Origin: Tuwongella immobilis | Lineage (GTDB): Bacteria; Planctomycetota; Planctomycetia; Gemmatales; Gemmataceae | Assembly: GCF_901538355.1 (NCBI RefSeq) | Contig: NZ_LR593887.1 | Span: 3,014,920-3,078,919 of the forward strand | Direction of reading: 5' to 3' | DNA: 64,000 nucleotides | Shown: piece by piece, positions 41,679 through 44,786 of the stretch | Numbering within the stretch: position 1 is the first letter of the stretch | Layout of the letters: each line of letters starts with the position of its first letter | Translations under genes and position numbers: made by a program | Notes under the pieces: model-generated | What the model saw: the letters and a program-made list of their open reading frames with translations, nothing else | Told to the model about the DNA's origin: nothing | Databases searched by the model: none

Positions 41679-44600
41679 ATGAAGAAAGAAATGTTGATTA
41701 ACGTCCTCCAATCGGAGGAATGTCGGATTGCCATTGTCGAAAATGGCATCCTGGAAGAACTGTACGTCGAGCGGGCCAGCCAAGAAAGTATTGTTGGCAA
41801 CATCTACAAAGGCCGCATCGTTAACATCGAGCCGAACATCCAAGCCGCGTTCGTCGACTTTGGCATCGGTCGAAATGGCTTCTTGCACGTCTCCGACGTC
41901 GATCCGATCTACTATCGCCATCTCGAATCGGGCAATCGATCCGGTCGTTCGGGCCGCGATGATTCCTCCGATCGGGATGATCGCCGGGAACGGGATGATC
42001 GTGGTGGACGGGAACGGGATGATCGTGGGGCACGCAACGATCGTGGCGATCGCAACCGCGGGCGAGATGATCGCCGAGGACGCGACGATCGGCGAGGGCG
42101 GGATGATCGTAGTGATCGTGGTGGCCGCGATCGGGATGATCGGCGTGGTCGTGGGGATCGTCGCGATCGGCACGAACGTCAAGATCGCCCGGCTTACAGC
42201 GTTTATCCCACCGATGTCGAAATTCCCTCGACCGTTCCCGAAGCGCAGCCGCTGACCTCCTGGTTGCCGCCCGAGCCAACTCCCGCTCCCGAAACTGGGT
42301 CAATCGCCGAAAGTAACTTTGGTGCCGGCCTTCTGGAAGAGTCGGGGTTTGGTGCGGGAATCGTCGATGAATCGCCCGAAGTCCAGATGGACGAAGGGTT
42401 TGATATTCCGCTTGCCGAACCGGTGGACGAACTCGAACCGGCTCTCGAACGTGCGGACCTACATCGAGACGAATCGGATCCCATCCCAACTGCGGATGCC
42501 GTCGTACGGACCGCGACCGCACCCGCCGAAGCGGTTGACGAGTCGGCCAGCGACGATGCACCGGGCGAAGATGCCACGGTTGCGGTGAGCGAACCGGAGC
42601 GAAAACCCCGCAAACGGACGCGCAAGGCTGCTCCTGCGGTGGAAGTGGAACCCGAACCCGCCGCTCCGAAGCGTCGGAAACGGCGTGCCGAAGCGGAAAC
42701 GCCCAGCGAGCCGGAACCCGAAGTGGCCGAAGCGGCCGAAGAATCGACGCCAACGACCGAAGAATCGGAAACTCCGAAACGGCGTCGCACCAAATCATCT
42801 GGCAGCACCTCACGGCGAAAACGCACCGATGCCGCCAAGAATCGGGATGCGGGTTCCGATGATGATGAGAAGCCACGATTGATGGATTCTGCGGAGCGTC
42901 GCACCTACGGAGATGAGTCGGAACTGTATGGCGATGATGAAGGTGGATTCGGTGCCGGGTTGGATCTGCCCGAAGAAGAACCGACCTCGTCTGCTGCCGC
43001 ATCGACTGCCCCGGAACCCGTGAAGGCATCGCTGCCGGAAGTCGATGCCGAGGAATGGCTTGAGGACGATCTGCCGGATGCTTCGGAGGCCGAGATTCTT
43101 GTCGAAACGGTCGCCGAGGTGGCAGACCCATCGCCTTTGGAATCGGTCAGCCATGATTTGGATGATCCGGTCGATTCGCTGTCCGATGATTCGGAAACTG
43201 AAGCGTTGCAGAGTCCGCTCGATGATTTGGAAGAACCGCATCAAGTCCGTCAAGAACGGTTTGATGATGATGTTCCCGAATCGTTCGATGACAGCGGGAA
43301 TGATGAGTCGGAAGACGATGGCGAAGATGAGACGAGTGGCGGTCGGGGCGGTCGCAACATGCGTGGCGGTCGCGGAGGCCGCAACATGCGTGGTGGTCGT
43401 CCGGGAACTGGTCGGCCTCGCCCGTTGATTCAAGACATCTTCAAACGTGGCCAAGAGGTCATCGTTCAAGTCATCAAGGAACCGCTGGGCACCAAAGGCC
43501 CAACGCTGTCCACCTATGTGAGCATCGCCGGTCGATACTTGGTGCTGATGCCGGGTCTGAATCGCATCGGAGTGTCGCGGAAGATCCAAGACGATCATAT
43601 CCGCACGCGACTGCGAGACATGCTGCAAGACATGCGGCCGCCGCGTGGTTTGGGCTTCATCATTCGGACCGCCGGAATGGACCGCAATGACCCGGATTGG
43701 GAAGCGGATCTGGACCGCTACCGCACCGAATTGCAAGCGGACTTCACCTATCTGCTGCGGTTATGGCAGGTGGTGGCGGAGCGGATTCGACGCAATCCTG
43801 GACCGTGTGAAATCCATCGGGAAACCGATATGATCACTCGGACGATTCGGGATATCTTCTCGTCCGATATCGATTCCATCTGGGTCGATGAGCCGAATGC
43901 TTACAAGCAAGCGGCCGAGTTTCTCCAGTTGGTCATGCCGCGTTACACCAACCGGATTCGCTACTACGAATCGACGGAACCGATCTTCCATCGCTATCGG
44001 ATTGAAGATGAGATTAGTCGCATTCAACAGAAGACGGTGCCGCTGCCGATGGGTGGCTCGATTGTGATCGAGCAAACCGAAGCGTTGGTGGCGATCGACG
44101 TGAATAGCGGTAGTTTCCGCGGTGAATCGAATGCCGAAGAATCGGCGTATCAGATGAATTTGCAGGCGGCGAAGGAAATCGCCCGACAATTGCGGTTACG
44201 CGATTTGGGCGGTGTGATCGTCAACGACTTCATCGATATGCGGGAAGAACGCCATCGCCGCAATGTCGAAAAGGCGCTGCGAGATGCCGTGCGACGCGAT
44301 CGCGCTCGGACGAAGGTGCTGCGTATCTCGGCGTTTGGCATCATCGAGATGACGCGGCAACGGATTCGCCCATCACTCAAGCGAAGCGTCTATCGAGAAT
44401 GCTCGCATTGTAAGGGAAGCGGCTCAGTGAAGACCAGCGAGAGCGTGAGCATCGAAGCCATGCGATTGCTCCAACTGGCGTCTCATCGGGCGGGAATCAG
44501 CAACATTCAGTTGCGAGTCCACAGCGATGTCGCCCACTACCTGCAAAACCGCAAGCGGCGGGAACTGCTGCGATTGGAAGAGTTGGGCAAGATGCAGATT

Positions 44601-44786
44601 TCGGTGGTTGCCGATCCGCATGTGCCGCCCGAAACGATGGATTTCACCTGTCTGGATGCCCAGAATTCCGAAGTGAAATTCCTGCACAACGATCCGCCGC
44701 AACGCCAGTTGCCGTATCAACGTCGTGGGAACTCGCATCATTCCGAACAGCGAAATCGTCACCAGCATTCGCGCGATCGAGATTGA
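41679..44786 (+). CDS. Ribonuclease E/G with very large insert in the S1 domain
   Basis: A 1035-residue protein. It starts like RNase G/E (MLINVLQSEECRIAIVENGI, VGNIYKGRIVNIEPNIQAAFVDFGIGRNGFLHVSD). After residue about 83 the S1 domain is interrupted by about 495 residues: an Arg/Asp repeat tract (about 88-172), a long acidic Glu/Ala/Pro region with basic Lys/Arg patches, and an RGG-like segment. S1 resumes at LIQDIFKRGQEVIVQVIKEPLGTKGPTLSTYVSIAGRYLVLMPG. The catalytic core follows, with magnesium aspartates in AIDVNSGSF and GVIVNDFIDM and a Zn-link type CSHC motif (YRECSHCKGSG). The enzyme cuts single-stranded A/U-rich RNA. Upstream AAGGA sets the start. The insert may recruit partners or RNA as E. 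coli RNase E does with its C-terminal tail. Confidence 0.95.
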   Translation: MKKEMLINVLQSEECRIAIVENGILEELYVERASQESIVGNIYKGRIVNIEPNIQAAFVDFGIGRNGFLHVSDVDPIYYRHLESGNRSGRSGRDDSSDRDDRRERDDRGGRERDDRGARNDRGDRNRGRDDRRGRDDRRGRDDRSDRGGRDRDDRRGRGDRRDRHERQDRPAYSVYPTDVEIPSTVPEAQPLTSWLPPEPTPAPETGSIAESNFGAGLLEESGFGAGIVDESPEVQMDEGFDIPLAEPVDELEPALERADLHRDESDPIPTADAVVRTATAPAEAVDESASDDAPGEDATVAVSEPERKPRKRTRKAAPAVEVEPEPAAPKRRKRRAEAETPSEPEPEVAEAAEESTPTTEESETPKRRRTKSSGSTSRRKRTDAAKNRDAGSDDDEKPRLMDSAERRTYGDESELYGDDEGGFGAGLDLPEEEPTSSAAASTAPEPVKASLPEVDAEEWLEDDLPDASEAEILVETVAEVADPSPLESVSHDLDDPVDSLSDDSETEALQSPLDDLEEPHQVRQERFDDDVPESFDDSGNDESEDDGEDETSGGRGGRNMRGGRGGRNMRGGRPGTGRPRPLIQDIFKRGQEVIVQVIKEPLGTKGPTLSTYVSIAGRYLVLMPGLNRIGVSRKIQDDHIRTRLRDMLQDMRPPRGLGFIIRTAGMDRNDPDWEADLDRYRTELQADFTYLLRLWQVVAERIRRNPGPCEIHRETDMITRTIRDIFSSDIDSIWVDEPNAYKQAAEFLQLVMPRYTNRIRYYESTEPIFHRYRIEDEISRIQQKTVPLPMGGSIVIEQTEALVAIDVNSGSFRGESNAEESAYQMNLQAAKEIARQLRLRDLGGVIVNDFIDMREERHRRNVEKALRDAVRRDRARTKVLRISAFGIIEMTRQRIRPSLKRSVYRECSHCKGSGSVKTSESVSIEAMRLLQLASHRAGISNIQLRVHSDVAHYLQNRKRRELLRLEELGKMQISVVADPHVPPETMDFTCLDAQNSEVKFLHNDPPQRQLPYQRRGNSHHSEQRNRHQHSRDRD
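41958..42190 (+). repeat. Degenerate GGGATGATCG repeats coding an Arg/Asp tract
   Basis: Units such as CGGGATGATCGT, CGAGATGATCGC and CGCGACGATCGG recur about every 9-24 bases and encode RDDR/GRDD repeats within the RNase E/G insert. The palindromic core GATC appears many times. Confidence 0.75.
43341..43400 (+). repeat. Tandem duplication coding GGRGGRNMR units
   Basis: Two adjacent copies of about 24-27 bases, each ending CGCAACATGCGT, encode the RGG-like motif at the end of the RNase E/G insert. Confidence 0.75.

Follow-up and report, generated by a model that had tools for sequence, protein, structure and literature searches.

How does a ribonuclease of the RNase E/G type accommodate some 500 residues of low-complexity sequence inside its S1 domain, and what would this sequence do there? 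The question is raised by a gene in a 64,000-nucleotide stretch of the Tuwongella immobilis genome (contig NZ_LR593887.1, positions 3,014,920 to 3,078,919), which was analyzed as a whole and is referred to as the window. Our best reading is that the insert is a relocated degradosome or condensate scaffold with a docking motif common to Rho. We assign a probability of about 60% to the view that the S1 loop of this enzyme has grown into a disordered scaffold of approximately 500 residues, which does the job of the C-terminal scaffold of E. coli RNase E and carries motifs that recruit a partner. The position of the insert, its conservation, its predicted disorder, the enrichment of a motif in both RNase E and Rho, and a parallel difference in the flanks of that motif were all computed.

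An ordinary catalytic core and a long insert in the S1 loop

The Rne/Rng-family ribonuclease gene is one uninterrupted open reading frame at 41,679–44,786 on the plus strand (1035 aa plus stop; the window features given below lie on this strand), with an ATG start codon and AAGGA immediately 5' of it. The TIGR00757 (RNaseEG) score of 474 bits, against a cut-off of 325.95, places the protein in the Rne/Rng (RNase E/G) family, and Pfam detects PF10150 (RNase_E_G) at aa 615–895 (324 bits, cut-off 25.5) and a thioredoxin-like domain at aa 908–987. The scores for the E. coli-type RNase E equivalog (PRK10811, 400.9 against 908) and the RNase G equivalog (PRK11712, 403 against 594) were below their cut-offs. 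In a core alignment of 42 sequences, comprising 41 of 70 usable relatives and the window protein, R663 and T664 in the IIRTAG segment (aa 661–666, 43,659–43,676), D807 and N809 in AIDVNSG together with D850 in VNDFIDM (44,091–44,240), and C908 and C911 in CSHCKG (aa 908–913, 44,400–44,417) are invariant in 42/42. By E. coli RNase E, we take these to be 5'-sensor residues, catalytic residues, and zinc-link cysteines, respectively. The S1 residues F58, F68, and K606 are likewise invariant in all 42. With these residues and the scores above the family cut-offs, the RNase E/G catalytic core reads as ordinary and intact, in agreement with the initial annotation of this DNA, which had called it normal.

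The solved structure of E. coli RNase E matches the protein in two pieces, aa 3–79 and aa 579–986. The segment between them (aa 80–578, 499 aa, 41,916–43,412) is unmatched, and E. coli has about 6 residues there. Pfam recognizes only half of the S1 domain (PF00575, aa 39–75), within the first S1 half at aa 39–79 (41,793–41,915), where the pairing with E. coli RNase E runs up to aa 79. The break lies about 6 residues past FLHVSD (aa 68–73), behind DPIYY, and the chain returns into S1 at aa 581–618 (RPLIQDIF...SIAG, 43,419–43,532), a segment that holds K606 and is covered by the E. coli match starting at aa 579. An interruption after FLHVSD of about 495 residues at 41,931–43,420 had been proposed; the two-piece match and the half S1 domain in Pfam confirm it, and the proposed coordinates and size are correct within a few residues.

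The composition described earlier was also recovered. Direct reading shows an R/D/G-rich block on the entry side (aa 85–170, 41,931–42,188), clusters of Lys and Arg (aa 329–387, 42,663–42,839), an acidic block (aa 529–551, 43,263–43,331), and an RGG-like tandem block on the exit side (aa 554–576, 43,338–43,406), with a 27-base tandem repeat at 43,336–43,399. The charge blockiness of the insert was higher than in any of 500 shuffles (z 5.7), which indicates alternating charge patches. Over 51 inserts, the mean net charge is -0.085 per residue. Averaged over 53 nonredundant inserts, the net charge is negative in the middle of the insert, and RG/GR pairs are concentrated in its first and last tenths.

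The predicted model of the whole protein has a mean predicted local distance difference test score (pLDDT) of 56 and a predicted template modeling score (pTM) of 0.50. Nearly all of aa 91–577 is below a pLDDT of 50, without predicted helix or strand, and S1 strands stand on both sides. Since the S1 pieces from both sides of the insert (model range 40–601) together superpose on 1smx_A, a solved structure of the E. coli S1 domain (69 residues, 2.8 Å, and Z 7.5, a value that alone is within the range of chance matches), S1 is broken in the sequence, but its fold is probably unbroken in the model. For the whole predicted chain, the best structural match is E. coli RNase E (Z 18.9); the root-mean-square deviation is large (18 Å) because the domains are placed differently. 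Among the matches listed in the fold search, the Caulobacter crescentus structure 4OXP was matched only at aa 611–707.

An acidic insert at this place could also be an autoregulatory lid, that is, an RNA-mimicking arm that lies over the S1 groove and gates the substrate, as proposed for Caulobacter. There, the crystal structure shows a partly helical insert at the site that RNA occupies in E. coli RNase E (PMC4245959). In planctomycetes, the insert emerges from the same S1 loop, and overall it is acidic, as the mean charge shows. No helical segment is predicted in it, although the helices of the Caulobacter insert were likewise not predicted (PMC4245959). A lid would need neither 500 residues nor a motif shared with Rho, and we consider this explanation unlikely.

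Distribution and age of the insert

Relatives were collected by a scan of bacterial and archaeal genomes, from which the best 80 of 559 confirmed were used. Both S1 halves are in one open frame in 71 of the 80; the remaining 9 lack the first S1 half, and their contigs start there. One of these contig-edge relatives (L030, with a long insert) has an in-frame stop within the first 95 bases of its contig, which may reflect a frameshift, a sequencing error, or a real break. The site of the insert is common to all 71 readable relatives and its length is variable. The comparison of planctomycete RNase E/G sequences proposed with the initial annotation gave 212–774 residues in the S1 loop of 47/71 relatives and 25–87 residues in the other 24. 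The short inserts, of the Pirellulales type, have a conserved entry, an acidic stretch, and then an Arg-rich end, which looks like a reduced plan of the long ones. Behind the core, the 47 long-insert relatives have a tail with a median of 23 residues (range 0–68), and apart from the S1 insert the protein has no disordered region of any size. A split into two genes was ruled out by the single frame in 71/71 readable relatives.

The insert had been expected to be absent from close relatives if it came from an assembly error or a recent expansion; it is widespread. The window genome consists of one contig and has one RNase_E_G gene. An assembly error is ruled out by this single contig and by the insert being in one frame across the relatives. 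We therefore read the insert as ancient rather than as recent or as an artifact. At about 500 residues within a conserved domain, the insert matches an intein in size. No intein or mobile-element Pfam family was found at E values up to 1, nor any splicing or Hint domain. Given the low-complexity composition, the same site with variable length in 71/71 readable relatives, and the single-contig genome, we give practically no weight to an assembly error within the gene, an intein, or a mobile element.

In the order of the window, Gemmatales, the gene was found in 77 of 83 genomes, with listed frames of 186 to 1245 residues, the short ones possibly being contig-edge pieces. In a tree of the catalytic core, from which the insert was left out, 13 Isosphaerales rows form one clade with 100/100 support. 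These 13 had first been assigned by title and look, and the tree groups exactly these. The 6 short-insert rows included form another clade. One state change suffices on this tree, read without a root. Records titled Isosphaera (L058) and Singulisphaera (L069) group with Gemmatales on the core tree and were left out of the Isosphaerales counts. These two and a record titled Candidatus Kuenenia (L029) carry a Gemmatales-type RNase E on this tree, and the three titles are probably wrong.

Across the phylum, an RNase E/G gene was found in 235 of 244 planctomycete genomes. We read 70 loci or stretches, which were chosen for long frames and are not a census. In these other planctomycetes, the additional sequence precedes the core (as many as about 595 residues, with unverified start codons), occupies the S1 loop (as many as about 310 residues, and 618 in one Isosphaerales-type sequence), or follows the core (as many as 306 residues). 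Because the extra disordered sequence lies before, within, or behind the core depending on the family, the position of the RNase E scaffold seems to have moved more than once among planctomycete families. A table from 2011 gives planctomycete RNase E/G lengths of 509–588 aa (PMC3071783).

A short motif in the insert and in Rho

Degenerate four-position patterns were searched without bias in 53 nonredundant inserts and compared with shuffles, which preserve overall but not local composition. The top pattern was [FYW]GxG[ILVM], present in 28/53 inserts against 0.78 expected. The related form F[GAS]xG[ILVM] (the FGxG motif) occurs in 31/53, and the same pattern reversed, as an order control, in 4/53. 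Along the insert, the sites cluster from the second through the fourth tenth. The window protein has two adjoining copies in an acidic context, FGAGLLEES (aa 214–222, 42,318–42,344) and FGAGIVDES (aa 224–232, 42,348–42,374), and a third copy by pattern reading, FGAGLDLPEEE (aa 424–434, 42,948–42,980). A second conserved motif, PRLMDSAERRT (aa 399–409, 42,873–42,905), has a relaxed MDSAERRT-type form that is present in 16/48 long inserts compared with 15/9600 shuffled inserts, and in none of the 13 sequences of the Isosphaerales clade. The third, PN[DE]x[FYW], occurs in 14/53 inserts against 0.23 expected. Across the two orders, the order of the motifs is kept and their spacing is not.

This regularity bears on the simplest explanation, that the insert is a merely tolerated expansion: slippage at repeats and drift would have filled a permissive loop, and apart from its charge and its stickiness toward RNA it would serve no scaffold function. 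An insert length of 25 to 774 aa, short tandem repeats, the absence of the top motif from 24/48 Gemmatales inserts, and its absence from all 24 short, seemingly reduced Pirellulales-type inserts would fit such drift. Non-random motifs in a conserved order without conserved spacing, the recurrence of RG-rich ends and an acidic middle, and the same motif with matching flanks in Rho would not, and we regard drift alone as improbable.

Other disordered-looking stretches from the loci examined contain the FGxG motif twice in 12,407 residues, and both sites belong to one RNase E that had been wrongly sorted among them. In other planctomycete RNase E sequences, it is present in 3/21 N-terminal extensions (0.09 expected, start codons unverified), a suggestive result from few cases, and in 0/5 C-terminal regions. 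It was not found in PNPase, the two strong DEAD-box helicases, or RNase Y of the window genome, or in 22 Gemmataceae PNPase tails recovered from 31 loci, and a motif belonging to PNPase or the DEAD-box helicases was accordingly rejected. A stricter pattern, which would miss Rho, gave 47 matches against 9 for the control in three complete genomes. Of these, 45 were viewed in context, and by eye a disordered context was plausible only for the window genome's own two RNase E sites and for one 737-residue open reading frame of genome G300.

The Rho protein of the window genome (3370678 on the contig; TIGR00767, 675.9 bits against a cut-off of 509.45) has a disordered N-terminal arm of about 170 residues that reads ESSFGEGILPPEE, which is the motif of the RNase E insert. 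It was encountered with a loose DNA pattern of the motif, which gave 141 matches in the window genome compared with 43 for the reversed control. The protein context was viewed for 37 of the 141, and 7 of these 37, Rho among them, were hand-picked for likeness to the motif. As Rho came from a picked sample, separate tests of Rho were needed, and those tests are the evidence. The pattern F[GAS]xG[ILVM] was present in 8/28 Gemmataceae Rho arms on the first test, against 0.204 from shuffles, and in 10/39 after additions. With the pattern fixed beforehand, Isosphaerales Rho had it in 7/30 sequences (5/23 nonredundant), against 0.206 (0.156) from shuffles. The reversed pattern was found in 0/39 Gemmataceae and 0/30 Isosphaerales Rho sequences. 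The window genome has three Rho-type genes (3371254, 3413828, and 5204328), as do most Gemmataceae genomes searched, judging by their three Rho matches, and NCBIfam includes a short-form Rho2 paralogue.

The charge upstream of the motif differs between the two orders in parallel in RNase E and Rho. In Gemmatales, the upstream flank is acidic at 46/50 RNase E sites and basic at 1/50, and it is acidic at 9/10 Rho sites and basic at 0/10; a basic flank was seen in a single Gemmatales row (L014). In Isosphaerales, it is basic at 15/19 RNase E sites and 5/7 Rho sites. For Rho, the comparison of 0/10 with 5/7 basic flanks gives a Fisher p of 0.003, the sites not being independent. Pan216 (L042), which is on a long branch outside the Gemmatales and Isosphaerales groups, has an acidic motif flank.

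In 35 genomes in which both genes were read, the motif was present in both proteins in 8, in RNase E only in 11, in Rho only in 1, and in neither in 15. The association of any RNase E copy with the Rho motif is modest (Fisher p 0.022, uncorrected for kinship). When RNase E has two or more copies, a cut chosen after seeing the data, Rho has the motif in 8/11 genomes compared with 1/24 of the others (p 5.7e-5), and within one 15-row clade the counts are 7/3 versus 0/5 (p 0.026). When mapped onto the RNase E tree, presence of the motif in Rho requires 7 changes. Shuffles often need as few (99 of 500 were as low), so the Rho motif is scattered and not confined to one clade. A control pairing of the MDSAERRT motif with the Rho motif showed no association (3/16 versus 6/10, p 0.25).

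Few in copy number, specific in position, and common to Rho, the FGxG motif looks like a candidate docking site on these sequence patterns. The aromatic-Gly core would also suit a weak self-sticking element like FG repeats, one that condenses RNase E and Rho separately without docking to a shared partner, and condensation is reported both for RNase E of Caulobacter and Sinorhizobium (PMC12691583) and for Bacteroides Rho (PMC10284900, PMC13269538). This we find doubtful: each protein has just 1 to 4 copies, and Rho mostly a single one, the Gly and aliphatic positions are fixed, and the lineage-specific flanks in both proteins fit a recognized ligand better than a generic sticker. A more specific proposal is that Gemmatales and Isosphaerales couple termination to decay via one hub that reads F[GA]xG-aliphatic, and that a preference for acidic or basic flanks shifted once, dragging both proteins with it. 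We put this forward tentatively and would expect it to fail sooner than hold.

For the scaffold itself, we infer RNA holding, condensation, partner docking, and a coupling to Rho. Both ends of the insert are fixed next to the RNA-binding face and are rich in Arg and Gly, so RNA held by the insert would be close to the groove; the Arg/Gly-rich segments at its exit from and re-entry to S1 may hold RNA beside the groove formed by S1 and the 5' sensor. The alternating acidic and basic stretches could gather tetramers with RNA and the Arg/Gly/Asp-rich PNPase tail into decay bodies. Recruitment of a partner would fall to short docking motifs, mainly [acid]-x-F-[GA]-x-G-[ILV]-x-[DE], and the motif in the Rho arm would bring Rho and RNase E to one partner or body, coupling termination to decay.

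The PNPase gene is present in the window genome and encodes a DRGD-rich C-terminal tail like the first block of the insert. Gemmataceae PNPase tails are mostly Arg/Gly/Asp-rich, with at least one RG/GR pair in 19 of the 22 recovered, and these Arg/Gly-rich tails hint at a link to the insert. The tails are rich in DRGD, RGGD, and RDDR repeats like those of the first insert block, for example the long RDDR repeats of L268.

Several observations weigh against the scaffold reading, in addition to the chance-range Z value of the S1 alignment. Charge blockiness is above all shuffles in only 25/51 inserts. The FGxG motif cannot be essential to the insert, as 24/48 Gemmatales inserts do without it, and S1 inserts outside Gemmatales and Isosphaerales appear to lack it: in a wider planctomycete set, it was present in 1/17 S1 inserts, that one an Isosphaerales-type sequence. 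Rho is without the motif in 29/39 Gemmataceae and 23/30 Isosphaerales sequences, and 11 of the 19 genomes with an RNase E motif have a Rho without it. The shuffles miss local composition, and the relatives are not independent. The genome also encodes RNase Y and a homologue of metallo-beta-lactamase RNases (RMMBL), so its main decay scaffold need not be RNase E.

RNase E, RNase Y, and the RMMBL homologue co-occur in the window genome. Directly upstream of the RNase gene lies a DUF2344 gene (PF10105, 40,602–41,450, plus strand), and the order and strand of the two genes are kept in 60/69 testable relatives.

The insert and known RNase E scaffolds

These results suggest that no single end of the enzyme is the fixed place of the disordered RNase E scaffold, as one phylum has the extra sequence before the core, inside S1, or behind the core. 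The insert would be a natural case of a scaffold tied down at both of its ends next to the RNA groove, and with it the reasons for scaffold placement become testable. If the link to Rho is true, a short motif would offer a handle on the coupling of termination to decay in these bacteria. In the open-licence literature, we found almost nothing on the planctomycete RNA decay machinery, and no report of a planctomycete S1 insert or of a motif shared with Rho.

Among the closest known systems is the RNase E of alphaproteobacteria (Caulobacter crescentus, PDB 4OXP), whose S1 domain likewise has a charged insert that is predicted to be disordered. Published S1-domain inserts of alphaproteobacteria and plants have about 50–150 residues and are charged and predicted to be disordered (PMC4245959), whereas the insert has 499 residues here and up to 774 in relatives. 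In a plasmid collection, four alphaproteobacterial genes have 59–235 residues in this loop, between ...HPDYY and ...YKIQEVIK; the longest, from Methylobacterium (L152), is also above the published size. The same four have 272–475 residues behind the core, in contrast to 0–68 in the long-insert planctomycetes, and none of their four S1 inserts contains the narrower [FYW]GxG form of the motif. In a Serratia gene, the loop has 7 residues, and at least 470 residues follow the core in the part of the sequence that was read. The chloroplast RNase E of plants, which we compared through the literature rather than by sequence, has an S1-domain insertion too, and its deletion in Arabidopsis greatly lowered activity, as cited in PMC4245959.

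In Caulobacter, the catalytic fragment bearing the insert binds the helicase RhlB (PMC4245959). The initial annotation had suggested that low-complexity, scaffold-like sequence inside S1 is a different way to build a degradosome. The first part stands: the low-complexity segment lies inside S1, is ancient by its distribution, has the charge, RG pairs, and short conserved motifs described above, and is the sole sizeable disordered region. A wholly different way is not supported, given the published inserts of alphaproteobacteria and plants and the binding of RhlB. What is new here is the size of the insert, its occurrence in planctomycetes, the lack of a sizeable scaffold elsewhere in the protein, and the conserved short motifs.

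The scaffold of E. coli and Pseudomonas RNase E resembles the insert in being disordered, with Arg-rich segments and short linear motifs; its motifs recruit PNPase and RhlB, and its Arg-rich segments bind RNA (PMC11964227). It lies behind the catalytic core, whereas the planctomycete sequence lies inside S1, and the motif sequences differ. In the RNase E of Caulobacter and Sinorhizobium BR-bodies, alternating charge patches drive condensation (PMC12691583), and the C-terminal regions of the four alphaproteobacterial proteins are similar to the insert in charge fraction and blockiness; the position is different, and condensation of the planctomycete form is a proposal. The phase-separating Rho of Bacteroides also has a disordered extension, like the Rho described here; in the one paper on it that was searched (PMC13269538), no link to RNase E turned up, with 0 occurrences of 'RNase E'. 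Rho does co-purify with the Caulobacter degradosome and is reported in the degradosome of Rhodobacter capsulatus (PMC5472812).

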